From contig NZ_HE978514.1 of NCBI RefSeq assembly GCF_000311725.1, forward strand, positions 275,760-339,759: a stretch of 64,000 nt of DNA, given 5' to 3'. The translations under genes were made by a program, and so were the position numbers. Source of the DNA: Robertmurraya massiliosenegalensis JC6. GTDB lineage: Bacteria; Bacillota; Bacilli; Bacillales; Cytobacillaceae. Positions 23,442-28,740 of the stretch are shown piece by piece (position 1 is the stretch's first letter; every line of letters starts with the position of its first letter). The notes below the pieces were generated by a model. It was not told the DNA's origin. It saw only the letters and a list, made by a program, of their open reading frames with translations, and ran no database searches.

Positions 23442-24422
23442 TTACGAATCCAAAACTTCCGTAATCAACAATGTGTGATGGTCGCCTAAAGAAATTTCCT
23501 CTTCCGTATCTAAATAGCGTACGAACGGTCTTTGTATGTTTCCGACTATCTTCGTTACAATCACATCGCGGCCATTATTGAGTCTGACCTTTGTTCCTGG
23601 AATATAGCTTGGCACTTGTTGTACGAAAAGACTAATGAGAGCAGGTGGAAAAAGAGTACCACTCTTCGTCATAATATATTCCAATGCCTGATGCGGTGCT
23701 AGTCCGTCCTTTGATAGGGCGTTGTCGTAAACATTGGCAATTGCACAAATTTGCGCAAATTCATGGATTTCCTTTTCTACTAATCCTCTTGGCTCACCGC
23801 TTCCATCGATTGCCTCATGATGCTGATAGGCAACATGTGCGGATAAAAGACTAACCTCTCTTATTTTTCGCAAAAATTCAAAACCACTTCTAGCATGGTG
23901 TTCAGATTCTTGCCCAAACACTTTTCCAATATCATGAAGAAGACAACCTAACGCTAAGTCGTTTAATGATTTTTGAGAGACCCCTAGTTTTTTGGCTAAT
24001 TGAAGTGCGAGCAGAGAGACATTGATAGAATGGGCATACTCCCTTAATTCTTCTGCTAAAGAAGATGTGGGGATAAGAAAAAGCGCTTTTCTTTTTGCCA
24101 CCTCTTGCACAAGGAGGACAACTTGCTTTTGCAAATCACGAATGGGAAGTTCTTTTTTCTCTGTGACGGCCTCAAAAACATTTTTCAATACCTCAATTGC
24201 TTCCATCCACGTTGGGACATCGACCATTTCATCCATCGTGATTCCATAGGAAGTTGCATCCTCAATAAATAGATAGCGTATATCTAGTGCCACTAATCTC
24301 TCTAAATAAGCAGGATGTATCGTTCTCCCTGCACCTAGCAATATACGTCTATGTTTATCAAAAATTGGCCTCGCAAGCTGCATTAGTTTTGGGTTATATT
24401 CATCAATACTAATAAGTCTCAT
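23442..24422 (-). CDS. HD-GYP-like phosphohydrolase with degenerate GYP motif
   Basis: 326 aa. The HD motif L-L-H-D-I-G-K and the downstream H-H-E-A-I-D-G-S-G-E-P-R-G-L correspond to the HD-GYP signature, but the GYP triplet reads G-E-P. The N-terminal part (residues 1-130) resembles the DUF3391-like region of such proteins. HD-GYP enzymes hydrolyse c-di-GMP; the altered triplet makes the activity uncertain. Start at 24422 with GAGGGAG upstream. It may be relevant that a c-di-GMP riboswitch lies 1.8 kb away. Confidence 0.8.
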   Translation of the reverse strand: MRLISIDEYNPKLMQLARPIFDKHRRILLGAGRTIHPAYLERLVALDIRYLFIEDATSYGITMDEMVDVPTWMEAIEVLKNVFEAVTEKKELPIRDLQKQVVLLVQEVAKRKALFLIPTSSLAEELREYAHSINVSLLALQLAKKLGVSQKSLNDLALGCLLHDIGKVFGQESEHHARSGFEFLRKIREVSLLSAHVAYQHHEAIDGSGEPRGLVEKEIHEFAQICAIANVYDNALSKDGLAPHQALEYIMTKSGTLFPPALISLFVQQVPSYIPGTKVRLNNGRDVIVTKIVGNIQRPFVRYLDTEEEISLGDHHTLLITEVLDS

Positions 24423-24482
24423 GCGCTTCTCCCTCGTCAAACCCATTTTAGAAAAGTTTAATCTTGGAAATGAATTTTGTCT

Positions 24483-25232: not shown

Positions 25233-25495
25233 CGCTAGATCCTCCTTTATACAAGTACAAAGTACCTTTCACCATTGTAATACTTTTCAAGTGACAATCA
25301 AAATGTTTTAATTTTCGAAATGTGTCAAATTATGCATTGTCATGAATGAATTAATATTCTACTATGTAGATAAATATTATTTAATAACTATGAAAAGCTT
25401 AAAAATTCAAAAGAACTTTTTGTTCTAAATATGGAACTGTTTTTCAATCTTTGATATTATTAAAGTATACATTTTGATAGGATGTGTGATTTTTG

Positions 25496-25819
25496 ATGAT
25501 TGGTGATCGTGTTAAAAAACTCAGACTTGAAAAGAAGATGTCGCTTTCAGAGCTTGCTGAACAAGCTGGAGTGGCAAAATCTTATTTAAGTTCATTAGAA
25601 AGAAATCTACAAAATAACCCGTCCATTCAATTTCTCGAGAAAATTGCTGGCGTTCTCCATGTTCCAGTAGATTACTTAATCCATGAACACTTAAATGATG
25701 AAGATCTTGATTCAGAATGGATTAAGATTGTAAAAGAAGCTATGGACTCCGGTATTACAAAAGAACAATTTAGAGAATATCTTGAGTTTAATAAATGGAG
25801 AGCCAATCAAGACAAATAA
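25496..25819 (+). CDS. sinR: Biofilm master repressor SinR
   Basis: 107 aa. N-terminal XRE helix-turn-helix M-I-G-D-R-V-K-K-L-R-L-E-K-K-M-S-L-S-E-L with A-K-S-Y-L-S-S-L-E-R-N, almost as in B. subtilis SinR. The C-terminal dimerisation region (D-S-E-W-I-K-I-V-K-E-A-M-D-S-G-I-T-K-E-Q) binds SinI. SinR represses matrix genes. The ATG at 25496 is preferred over the adjacent TTG. sinI lies convergent downstream rather than upstream in the same direction as in B. subtilis. Confidence 0.93.
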   Translation: MIGDRVKKLRLEKKMSLSELAEQAGVAKSYLSSLERNLQNNPSIQFLEKIAGVLHVPVDYLIHEHLNDEDLDSEWIKIVKEAMDSGITKEQFREYLEFNKWRANQDK

Positions 25820-25857
25820 GTATGATGGAAGCAAAGGCGGAGTGACACTAACACAAG

Positions 25858-25889
25858 CAAAACCTGTTCTTTAAAAGAACAGGTTTTTT
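25858..25889. terminator. Terminator after sinR
   Basis: AAAACCTGTTCTT and AAGAACAGGTTTT form a long perfect stem with TTTTTTA, about 40 bp past the sinR stop. Confidence 0.9.
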
Positions 25890-26006
25890 ATTCGTGTACC
25901 TTATATATTAGGTTTCATTGAGCGGTGATGGTTTCAAAAGTAGATCCAAAATGAAGTCAGAAAAGATGTTCCGTAGTGATATATATTTGTTGAGCTGCTT
26001 GAAACA

Positions 26007-26141
26007 TTATTGCTTGACGGTTTTGTTAGCAAGAAATTCGCGAACTTCCTCCTTTTCAATTCCGAGTTTTTTTGCCTCTTTAATTAGTTCCAACCATTCC
26101 ATATCCAATCCTTCAATTCTTCCTTTCATTTCTATCACCAT
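26007..26141 (-). CDS. sinI: SinI-like antirepressor (44 aa)
   Basis: M-V-I-E-M-K-G-R-I-E-G-L-D-M-E-W-L-E-L-I then K-E-A-K-K-L-G-I-E-K-E-E-V-R-E-F-L-A-N-K. The L-D-x-E-W-x-x-L-I-x-E-A-x-x-x-G-I-x-x-E-E-x-R-x-F-L pattern is the SinI helical hook that binds SinR. AGGGGG lies 5 nt before the ATG. It faces sinR, and its leader carries a c-di-GMP-I riboswitch (26161-26252), so antirepressor synthesis is probably gated by c-di-GMP. Confidence 0.88.
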   Translation of the reverse strand: MVIEMKGRIEGLDMEWLELIKEAKKLGIEKEEVREFLANKTVKQ

Positions 26142-26160
26142 TTTTTCCCCCTAAAATCCA

Positions 26161-26252
26161 GCACGAATTTCAGCAGTCCAGCCGTCATAGTTCCCTACCT
26201 TAGACCTGAGACTTTGCGCCCCCATCTTTCAACAGGTTTGCCTTTTTCTTGC
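26161..26252 (-). ncRNA. Cyclic di-GMP-I (GEMM) riboswitch in the sinI leader
   Basis: On the minus strand the conserved blocks follow in the right order. GGCAAACC (26235-26242) and GAAAGA come first; then GGGCGCAAAG, AGGTCTAAGG, CTATGACGGCTGG and CTGC. These are the GEMM signature, namely the G-C-A-A-A-C-C / GAAA tetraloop helix, the G-x-C-G-C-A-A-A-G joiner, G-G-x-C-T-A-A and the A-U-G-A-x-G-C-C helix. A P1 helix pairs GCAAGAA (26246-26252) with TTCGTGC (26161-26167) with one A-G mismatch. P1 ends about 10 nt before the sinI Shine-Dalgarno and no terminator follows, so translational control is likely. Confidence 0.88.
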
Positions 26253-26492
26253 GTCCTTTATTTTTTACTCTAAAAGTTATCCCACTTATAGTCTACTTCG
26301 TTTTAATCAATAAAAGTGTAACTATTTGTCAGCCGTTAGAATATTTCGAAATTTATTTTTTAACAATTTTCGTCAACTAGCTACAGGAATAAATCATCAA
26401 ATAAGCAAATGGCATTACGGCGTTGACATCAATGTCAATTCGTGTCGAAATTTATTTCTCTAAAAAACAGTAGTATAGTCATCTATCAAAAT
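26253..26492. promoter_or_regulatory. sinI promoter region with Spo0A-box-like sites
   Basis: Upstream of the riboswitch are two matches to the Spo0A box core TGNCGAA: TGACGAA on the minus strand (26369-26375) and TGTCGAA on the plus strand (26443-26449). A weak promoter TTATTG, 17 bp, TATAAG can be drawn nearer the riboswitch. In B. subtilis sinI is activated by phosphorylated Spo0A. The region also separates the next minus-strand gene. Confidence 0.4.
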
Positions 26493-26711
26493 CTATCTAG
26501 TAATACCGTTTTCATTTTCCTCTTTACCTTTAAAGCTAAGAGAAGTCGAACCAGACAGCGTTTTTATGTATAATTGCTCAAATGTCACGGCATCGAAAAA
26601 TGGTTGTGCCGTTAAATCATGCCCGCATACAGGACATAACCACTCTCCATACTCGCTGCTACTAAAAGAAGGTTTATTACATTTATCACAATTCTTCCGG
26701 TACAATCGCAT
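26493..26711 (-). CDS. Small zinc-ribbon protein (72 aa)
   Basis: M-R-L-Y-R-K-N-C-D-K-C then W-L-C-P-V-C-G-H: two CxxC pairs 20 residues apart form a zinc ribbon in the N-terminal half. The C-terminal half is polar. Start at 26711 with AGGTG 8 nt upstream. Not a family that I can name. Confidence 0.6.
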   Translation of the reverse strand: MRLYRKNCDKCNKPSFSSSEYGEWLCPVCGHDLTAQPFFDAVTFEQLYIKTLSGSTSLSFKGKEENENGITR

Positions 26712-27030
26712 CACCCTCTCACCTGTTCTTTTAGAATTACTAATTGTTCTTAATTAAGAATATAGTATCATTTTATTCCTTTTATAAAGATTTTGAAATA
26801 TGGAAATTTTGTCATTTTTTCGTTTTAACGAACGTTTTTCTCTTTATTTCGTCCACATCCTTCAAATCTCTTACTTTTTTCATTTTATTTCTACTATTAA
26901 TCAAATATGCCCCTGAGTAAAAATTGTTTGAATTTAGGTCTAATGATGTATAGAAATATTGTCTGAATTATCTAAATAATAATATAATAACAGTAATAAA
27001 CTTAAAAAACATAAGAAAGGTGGTGTTTAA
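26712..27030. other. Intergenic region without recognised features
   Basis: About 320 bp, AT-rich, between the divergent zinc-ribbon gene and a small membrane-protein gene. Both promoters must be here; no hairpin or conserved RNA was recognised. Confidence 0.4.
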
Positions 27031-27152: not shown

Positions 27153-27198
27153 TAAAAAAAGTAGCACAAACCATTTTGGTCTGTACTACTTTTTTCAT
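27153..27198. terminator. Terminator shared by the 39-aa gene and motB
   Basis: AAAAAAGTAG and CTACTTTTTT, extended by ACA/TGT and ACC/GGT pairs, form a hairpin between the convergent genes. Confidence 0.8.
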
Positions 27199-27953
27199 TC
27201 AGAAGTTATCGGCAATATTAGGACTTCAACACGACGATTCTTTGCTCTTCCCTCACTTGTTGCATTGCTTGCTACAGGTTGGAATTCACCAAACCCTTTC
27301 GCACTGAACCATGCCGGATCCAGTTTATCGTTTTTCAGCACAATTTTCATAAAGCTAATCGCTCGCATCACACTTAACTCCCAGTTCGATTCAAAACGAG
27401 GATTGCTTATTGGCACATTATCTGTATGGCCACTAATAATAATATTCCGCGGTGGACTCATAACAAGAAGTTCGGATATCTCATCAGCCGTATGCACATC
27501 TTCCGGTCTAACGTCCGCACTACCAGATGCGAATAAGACATTATCACGGATCGTTAACAGCAGTCCTTCATCTGTTAATGAGGTGTCGAGCTTATCTGTT
27601 AGCTTATTTTCAGCAATATAGGCGTTTACCTTTTTTTGAATGTTCTCTAATTCCAATTTTTCAATTCTTTCAGCCTTTTCCTTGTCTTCACTATCTTCTT
27701 GTCCTTCGATATCATCAATGGCCTGAGCCTCATCTTCAGGCATTGGACTTGGGTAATCCAAGATACCAGTACCACCAGAAAGTGCTTGATTAAAAGCTTG
27801 CGACATTTTTTCTAGCTTTTGCGCATCTATCGTACTCATTGAAAATAACACGATAAACAATGCCAATAGTAATGTTAAAATATCTGCATATGGGATCAGC
27901 CACGATTCGTCTATATGTTCTTCGTGCTGTTCCTTTTTTCTTCGTTTACTCAC
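27195..27953 (-). CDS. motB: Flagellar motor stator MotB
   Basis: 252 aa. GTG start overlapping the motA stop (GTGAGTAA). One membrane helix with the proton-carrying Asp in W-L-I-P-Y-A-D-I-L-T-L, then an OmpA-like peptidoglycan-binding domain (I-S-G-H-T-D-N-V-P-I...N-R-R-V-E-V). It anchors the stator to the cell wall. The longer upstream frame lies inside motA and is rejected. Confidence 0.93.
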   Translation of the reverse strand: MSKRRKKEQHEEHIDESWLIPYADILTLLLALFIVLFSMSTIDAQKLEKMSQAFNQALSGGTGILDYPSPMPEDEAQAIDDIEGQEDSEDKEKAERIEKLELENIQKKVNAYIAENKLTDKLDTSLTDEGLLLTIRDNVLFASGSADVRPEDVHTADEISELLVMSPPRNIIISGHTDNVPISNPRFESNWELSVMRAISFMKIVLKNDKLDPAWFSAKGFGEFQPVASNATSEGRAKNRRVEVLILPITSE

Positions 27954-28740
27954 CCTTCTTCTCACCGCTTTCCTCTTGGAAATTCTTCCTTTCACTAGCT
28001 GGTAAGTATGAAGCTAATTTCTGTTCAATCACTCTTGGAGCTTCTCCTTCTAAGATAGAAAGTACACCTTCAATCATCATGTACTTTAATTTTGCTTCTA
28101 CCTTAGATTTTCTTTTCAGTTTATTGGCAAAAGGATGCCATAATGCGTAACCAGTGAAAATTCCGAGTAAGGTTGCGACAAAGGCAGCGCTAATGGCATG
28201 ACCAAGTGCATCAATATCACTCATATCTTGTAGTGCAGCAATTAATCCGACAACGGCACCTAGTACTCCAAGCGTCGGTGCATATGTTCCTGCTTGACTA
28301 AAAATAAGTGCGCCCTGATGATGTCTTTCCTCCATCGCTTCTATTTCTTCTGTCAGAACATCGCGAATGTAATCCGCACTTTGCCCATCAACTGCTAAAG
28401 AAAGACCATTTTTTAAAAATTCATCGTCAATTTCAGACGTTTTTGCTTCTAATGCAAGGAGTCCTTCTTTACGAGCTAATTGCGCCCAATCGGAAAACAT
28501 CCCAATCAAATCAGTTGGGTTCATTAGTTTTCTCTCTTTAAAAATTATCCCAAATAGTTTCGGAACCTTTTTTATTTCAGAGGTCGGAAAGGCAATGGTC
28601 ACCGTACCGATCGTTCCTAAAATAATAATTAAGATGGCAGCAGGGTTTACCAAAACCCCTACTCCTACTCCTTTTAAGACCATTCCTACTCCAACACCAA
28701 GTACTGCTACGATTAAGCCTATTATCGACGTTTTATCCAT
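27946..28740 (-). CDS. motA: Flagellar motor stator MotA
   Basis: 264 aa, four membrane helices. Proton channel subunit; N-terminus M-D-K-T-S-I-I-G-L-I and G-T-Y-A-P-T-L-G-V-L-G-A-V-V-G-L-I-A-A-L follow Bacillus MotA closely. Forms an operon with motB. Confidence 0.95.
   Translation of the reverse strand: MDKTSIIGLIVAVLGVGVGMVLKGVGVGVLVNPAAILIIILGTIGTVTIAFPTSEIKKVPKLFGIIFKERKLMNPTDLIGMFSDWAQLARKEGLLALEAKTSEIDDEFLKNGLSLAVDGQSADYIRDVLTEEIEAMEERHHQGALIFSQAGTYAPTLGVLGAVVGLIAALQDMSDIDALGHAISAAFVATLLGIFTGYALWHPFANKLKRKSKVEAKLKYMMIEGVLSILEGEAPRVIEQKLASYLPASERKNFQEESGEKKGE

Follow-up and report, generated by a model that had tools for sequence, protein, structure and literature searches.

A c-di-GMP-I (GEMM-I) riboswitch aptamer lies on the minus strand at positions 26169-26252 of the window, the whole 64-kb stretch of Robertmurraya massiliosenegalensis DNA that was analysed. 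When the 64 kb was scanned with 4227 Rfam families, this aptamer (26252-26169, minus strand) was the sole match at the gathering threshold. It covered model positions 1-87 of 87 of RF01051 with a score of 72.4 bits (gathering threshold 35, E 2.9e-12). A separate scan of 25900-26500 again gave 72.4 bits, and the clan match kept was RF01051, the variant RF03167 (c-di-GMP-I-GGC) not being the best match. A sequence-only reading had placed a GEMM-I element on the minus strand at these positions and had proposed a covariance-model search as a check; the search was run and its significant full-length match confirmed the placement. The distance from the aptamer end to the Shine-Dalgarno (SD) sequence, which had been put at about 10 nt, is 16 nt. 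By sequence the element is a c-di-GMP-I aptamer and as such would be expected to bind c-di-GMP.

The SD sequence, AGGGGG (26147-26152, minus strand), belongs to a 44-residue ORF (26007-26141, minus strand, ATG at 26141) that scored 48.5 bits against the Pfam SinI domain PF08671 (cut-off 31.4). The protein fell under the NCBIfam SinI equivalog cut-off (NF046031, 36.6 versus 80 bits) and thus we call it SinI-like rather than an equivalog; the SinI label given earlier holds at the level of the Pfam domain, but not at that of the equivalog. The best solved-structure match found by phmmer was SinI of PDB 1b0n (chain B, E 2.6e-4, residues 11-38). Convergent with this gene is a plus strand gene (25493-25819) encoding a 108-residue protein with an HTH_3 domain and a C-terminal SinI-type domain, the best solved-structure match of which was SinR, chain A of the same entry (phmmer, E 2.3e-37, residues 2-106). 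With an HTH, a C-terminal SinI-type domain and near full-length similarity to SinR, the protein has, by its sequence, the features of a SinR repressor. Its nearest named relatives are those of R. siralis (96%) and several further Robertmurraya, and a record labelled B. methanolicus DE0196 is likewise 96%. The B. subtilis sinI-sinR pair has the same SinI and SinR domains, 1b0n being the best match of both window proteins. The B. subtilis sinI gene immediately precedes sinR and is driven by Spo0A. RF01051 was absent from all 14 control genomes, B. subtilis among them.

Between the convergent genes is a terminator-like hairpin (25859-25887) with a 13-pair stem that can be read on both strands. 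Two such hairpins were found in 25300-26900 versus 0.7 expected from shuffles, both at this site. Upstream of sinR (25412-25426, plus strand) is the inverted repeat AGAACTTTTTGTTCT, which resembles a pair of SinR sites (consensus GTTCTYT) and had one match in the 64 kb versus 0.08 expected (a match was present in 8 of 100 shuffled copies). SinR-type sites were present in 21 of 108 regions upstream of sinR in relatives versus 4.7 upon shuffling, which is suggestive, and the inverted-repeat form occurred eight times in the same regions versus 0.1. On the sinI side a SinR-type site was seen in 34 leaders, a raw count taken without a shuffle control. Elsewhere in the genome a TasA-like gene (PF12389) has three GTTCTYT-type sites within 26 bp upstream. 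No three-site cluster of this type within 40 bp was found in the 64-kb window or in 200 shuffled copies. The SinR and matrix-gene side of the earlier interpretation has counterparts in this genome, a SinR-like gene and a TasA-like gene preceded by repeats that resemble SinR sites. The TasA-like gene (L326, G000:C3 at about 173454-174074) is in a row with genes for a 275-residue protein that lacks a Pfam match and a SipW-type signal peptidase, the latter frame assigned by eye.

The genome contains six c-di-GMP-I aptamers, every one of which scored over the cut-off. The five others precede genes other than sinI, one of them encoding a GGDEF protein (L003). At L001 the gene after the aptamer resembles, by eye, a chemotaxis receptor. 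Two further loci (L009 and L011) encode small SinI-domain proteins of 60 and 46 residues, and no c-di-GMP-I aptamer was found within the 3 kb examined around either. In the window 27195-28740 (minus strand) contains motB and, by eye, what is probably motA; both genes are on the riboswitch strand, some 1 kb upstream, with one 73-residue ORF in between. An HD-domain protein, HD-GYP-like by eye, is encoded at 23442-24446 (minus strand), and the Rfam scan of the 64 kb found no riboswitch before its gene. Relatives of this protein (L056 and L350, 50% and 53% identity) sit behind a c-di-GMP-I riboswitch.

Rfam detected the aptamer in all 20 related sinI loci scanned, 14 as RF01051 and six as RF03167. 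The GGC variant is said to have been described by Weinberg et al. 2017. The six RF03167 leaders could be taken to mean that the aptamer has decayed or shifted its ligand, the structure being kept while the response to c-di-GMP is lost (for example in favor of another cyclic dinucleotide). However, the window element matches RF01051 over its full length at 72.4 bits and 16 GGDEF matches were counted in the genome, and we consider such a loss of response highly improbable.

The sequence-only reading had suggested that the arrangement be sought in relatives, and riboswitch followed by sinI was found at 110 of the 128 family sinR loci studied, at 52 of 57 inspected loci in other families of the order and at 11 of 17 loci at class level. 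A single residue pattern rather than a profile was used to call SinI-like ORFs in all three samples. The family sample consisted of 128 sinR-type loci, one per genome (128 of 193 genomes), taken from among the matches listed; they were partly hand-picked and some near-duplicates were passed over. Two stand-alone sinI loci were added beside them. By domain search 188 of the 193 family genomes had a SinI domain. We derived a covariance model from 26 GEMM-I sequences found in the family; it matched 84 of the 100 loci in one batch and 27 of 30 sinR loci in the other, and none of four further SinI-domain loci of the R. massiliosenegalensis genome. One match of 26 bits (L172) was excluded from the riboswitch count. 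The SinI-like ORF lay directly behind the aptamer in all 110 riboswitch-bearing family loci and a convergent SinR-like ORF was present in 107, L084 being one locus with all three elements. In two others (L152 and L164) sinR, riboswitch and sinI follow in that order on one strand, and at L174 sinR is truncated by a contig end. At 11 of the 128 loci sinI lacked the riboswitch, and at six neither was found, three of these loci being short or at contig ends. The family also has c-di-GMP-I leaders of other kinds; of 37 of these, none preceded sinI and 25 contained a crude terminator. Eight loci (L096, L099, L147, L022, L023, L091, L098 and L121) gave matches to the sinI-riboswitch model of 139-163 nt or matches that ended about 50 nt early, apparently owing to an insertion in the P3 arm.

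Outside the family we used a second model (R2) composed of the aptamer plus the hairpin described below. At E<=1e-12 R2 found a match in 304 of the 397 genomes from the order, a nonspecific count given that any c-di-GMP-I aptamer can score. The 52 loci at which a SinI-like ORF followed the aptamer spanned 20 families of the order, the 57 inspected loci having been hand-picked from the upper part of the R2 matches listed and thus not a random set. A convergent SinR-like ORF was found in 15 of these 57 loci when 0.6-1.5 kb of downstream DNA was examined. At class level 41 of 398 genomes matched R2 at E<=1e-16. The 17 loci inspected there were those returned by the R2 search, again not a random sample, and the 11 with a SinI-like ORF comprised all nine loci of one family (f50), presumably Paenibacillaceae, and two of the eight others. 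A third locus outside f50 (L346) looked SinI-like by eye. Six of the nine f50 loci had a convergent SinR-like gene. On sequence evidence the riboswitch-sinI pairing is conserved far beyond the genus.

The convergent gene order raises the alternative that the riboswitch acts in antisense, its true target being sinR, reached by a transcript that runs into that gene. Such a mechanism has been proposed in a Paenibacillus strain, where a c-di-GMP-I riboswitch and a SinR-like gene converge (PMC9943018), and the convergent SinR-like ORF of the window and of 107 of the 110 family loci would accommodate it. However, an antisense riboswitch would have no downstream gene of its own, whereas the SinI-like ORF stands directly behind the aptamer in the window, in every riboswitch-bearing family locus and in 52 of the 57 others. 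Moreover, L152 and L164, with sinR upstream on the same strand, retain the riboswitch-sinI pair, and the terminator-like hairpin at 25859-25887 separates sinI from sinR in the window. As most of the 57 loci outside the family lacked a convergent SinR-like ORF within the 0.6-1.5 kb of downstream DNA examined, we rank antisense control low and regard it as very unlikely. The published case assigns the Paenibacillus riboswitch to sinR and the main text does not contain the word sinI (PMC9943018). Six of the nine f50 loci have the same convergent arrangement plus a sinI, and by analogy with these loci the published antisense riboswitch may be an overlooked sinI leader.

Given the evidence that sinI is the gene served by the aptamer, we consider how the leader could control it. 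The candidate expression platform in the window is a hairpin at 26151-26173 (minus strand) in which the 5' arm is formed by the 3' end of the aptamer and the nucleotides just after it and the 3' arm reaches the first two nucleotides of the SD. The predicted energy of this hairpin (L007) was -11.0 versus a mean of -5.9 when the linker was shuffled (z -2.6, p 0.017), and with the aptamer helices forced it paired two of the six SD nucleotides. In most family members GCCUGG forms the end of the aptamer and is followed by AAUAC, a loop and GUAUUUUAGGGGG, which allows a single hairpin to form between the aptamer 3' strand and the SD. The aptamer 3' end paired at least two SD nucleotides in 88 of 89 distinct family tails (109 loci), the exception being L077, in which there was no SD pairing. 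The median hairpin energy of the 89 tails was -11.5 kcal/mol versus -5.7 kcal/mol for linker shuffles, with 74 tails at p<=0.05; the 15 that missed this value included L076 and L077 (relatives within the genus), L109 and the loci of genus g7. RNAalifold predicted the SD hairpin unprompted across 36 whole leaders.

The sequence of the stem differs among lineages. Robertmurraya has a different stem sequence, composed in the window of CUGAAAUUCG with UGGAUUUUAG. At three loci of genus g7 CUUCC pairs with GGAGG in a shorter hairpin, and in the f50 loci CCUGGGGA pairs with UCUUAGG. When 26 loci from other families (17 of the 57 and the nine f50 loci) were tested, every one paired its SD with the aptamer end, a count made without a shuffle control. 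In a plain alignment of 81 distinct tails 92.3% of cells were paired versus 27-58% in slid versions, and the covariation score was reached by 25 of 500 shuffles. Two-sided changes in this alignment were no more frequent than in shuffles (296 and 211 of 500 shuffles reached them) and hence covariation, which is weak here, was dropped as proof of the hairpin. We therefore consider the replacement of the stem between lineages to be the better evidence. Identical tails were counted once (101 loci gave 82 distinct tails, from which L131 was then removed) and the rows of L157, L160 and L161, which MAFFT had shifted, were kept unaltered. Eleven rows were left out of the covariation count (L131, L154, L112, L031, L091, L121, L098, L023, L022, L146 and L172): the reasons included the shorter hairpin of genus g7 (as at L031), an aptamer whose 3' end the model had put in the wrong place, and a weak match. 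The 89-tail energy set restored L154, L112, L031, L091, L121, L098, L023 and L022, with L146 and L172 still excluded. An extended P1 helix, in which the upstream flank pairs with the 3' arm of the hairpin, seemed plausible by eye in Robertmurraya and was drawn by the window fold. This candidate was rejected: one of seven leaders of the genus (L076) gave z below -2, and 104 leaders had a median z of -0.1 with five below -2.

The first nucleotide of the SD-reaching hairpin, assigned from alignment and fold, is C80 of the aptamer (position 26173, minus strand), the only invariant C of the aptamer 3' strand (26 of 26 aligned GEMM-I sequences). C was present at this index in 103 of 109 sinI-leader tails, and in the predicted window hairpin C80 pairs with a G of the SD. 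In the Vc2 riboswitch of Vibrio cholerae c-di-GMP contacts G20, A47 and C92 (PMC4744006), and C80 presumably corresponds to C92. If the ligand site and the SD hairpin share this nucleotide and strand, binding and masking should exclude each other and the riboswitch would thus be an ON switch. When the aptamer 3' strand was withheld from pairing, the mean unpaired probability of the SD rose from 0.31 to 0.69 over 101 leaders. The rise exceeded 0.2 in 76 of these and did not in 25, in some of which accessibility fell. In the window this cruder strand-withholding model gave 0.21 to 0.42, and with the aptamer helices forced mean SD accessibility hardly shifted (0.64 versus 0.66) because just two of the six SD nucleotides are in the stem. 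As modelled masking is weak in the window, the switching direction in this strain leans on its relatives, in which the conserved hairpin, as modelled, fits control of sinI translation. Hence, the earlier interpretation that c-di-GMP sets SinI translation draws support from the aptamer, the adjoining SinI-domain gene, an arrangement found far beyond the genus and the SD hairpin of relatives, but masking in the window itself is partial.

The small modelled change in the window could also be read as a sign that the riboswitch controls sinI in another mode, either as an OFF switch or by acting on transcription termination or on RNA decay instead of on translation initiation. Other modes have precedent, a c-di-GMP-I riboswitch before mcpA in B. 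thuringiensis having been called "off" (PMC7793685) and Bc1 having been called mixed (PMC11218506). However, no terminator-like hairpin was found between the aptamer and the start codon in the scan of 25300-26900, and a hairpin built on the aptamer 3' strand should be opposed by ligand binding. An OFF switch or a mode other than control of translation initiation thus seems unlikely.

The remaining input considered is Spo0A, the binding box of which has the consensus TGTCGAA or its complement. A candidate box, TTCGACA, matches this consensus upstream of the riboswitch (26443-26449, minus strand). As the window contained four copies of the box versus 9.0 expected by chance, the copy at 26443-26449 means little by itself. 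Of 111 leaders, 40 had an exact box in the 300 nt preceding the aptamer versus 2.9 in block shuffles (largest value 9), and two had one in a control stretch 350-650 nt upstream. The other 71 leaders lacked an exact box. Outside the family boxes were found in 18 of the 49 leaders having enough upstream DNA versus 1.5 upon shuffling. This enrichment suggests that transcription of sinI depends on Spo0A~P.

The best explanation of these data, and one we think probable, is that the sinI leader is a c-di-GMP-I riboswitch acting as a translational ON switch that leads to inactivation of SinR, with a candidate input from Spo0A. In the absence of c-di-GMP the 3' strand of the aptamer, with its presumed ligand-contact C, would fold with downstream sequence and hide the sinI SD in a hairpin. 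With c-di-GMP bound that strand would be kept in the aptamer, the SD would be free and SinI would be made. SinI would then bind SinR and lift repression from matrix genes such as the TasA-like operon. Given the candidate Spo0A box upstream, sinI expression would need both c-di-GMP and Spo0A~P. The explanation is built on sequence features (aptamer, sinI ORF, gene order, conservation, the hairpin of relatives and box enrichment), and ligand binding, the ON direction, SinI-SinR binding, the SinR targets and the Spo0A input are what we infer.

The sequence-only reading knew of no described riboswitch-sinI pairing. One is in print, in that an RNA-seq study of B. methanolicus MGA3 lists "(c-di-GMP)-sinI" (BMMGA3_08510) in its Table 4, the same pairing of a putative c-di-GMP riboswitch before sinI (PMC4342826). 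The entry is one table row that gives no mechanism, conservation or direction of control in the passages available, and among open-access full text this was the one paper found to name the pairing (PMC4342826). Thus, the combination of riboswitch and sinI has to some extent been published before. No description of how widely it occurs, of the platform that pairs with the SD or of the enrichment of Spo0A boxes was found in open-access passages. The sinI leaders belong to the same aptamer class as V. cholerae Vc1 and Vc2 and B. thuringiensis Bc1. Lower c-di-GMP is reported to give lower Vc1-dependent expression, and Vc1 is reported to have no apparent terminator or anti-SD sequence (PMC4744006), whereas in Bc1 the platform is long and there are two terminators (PMC11218506). 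The sinI leaders differ from both in that their aptamer 3' strand forms a hairpin with the SD. In B. thuringiensis, sinI is noted to be up at high c-di-GMP in deposited data that the authors describe as unpublished (PMC7793685).

A broader proposal, which we regard as evenly balanced, is that across much of the class Bacilli c-di-GMP acts on SinR by way of an ancient riboswitch-sinI module, the ligand-contact strand of which also serves as the anti-SD sequence and the promoter of which is gated by Spo0A. According to this proposal B. subtilis would be an exception that lacks the module, and some sinR "antisense riboswitches" would be overlooked sinI leaders. SinI/SinR is the textbook Bacillus biofilm switch and c-di-GMP is a general bacterial biofilm signal, the two being treated as separate in B. 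subtilis. The pairing has the look of a conserved link by which c-di-GMP feeds into biofilm control. With a conserved riboswitch in front of sinI, a single short leader RNA would connect the two systems, and B. subtilis would not be a typical model for related species. Reading the element as a sinI leader would also give a simpler account of the published antisense-riboswitch case, and the pairing bears on how c-di-GMP could promote biofilm formation in spore-formers.
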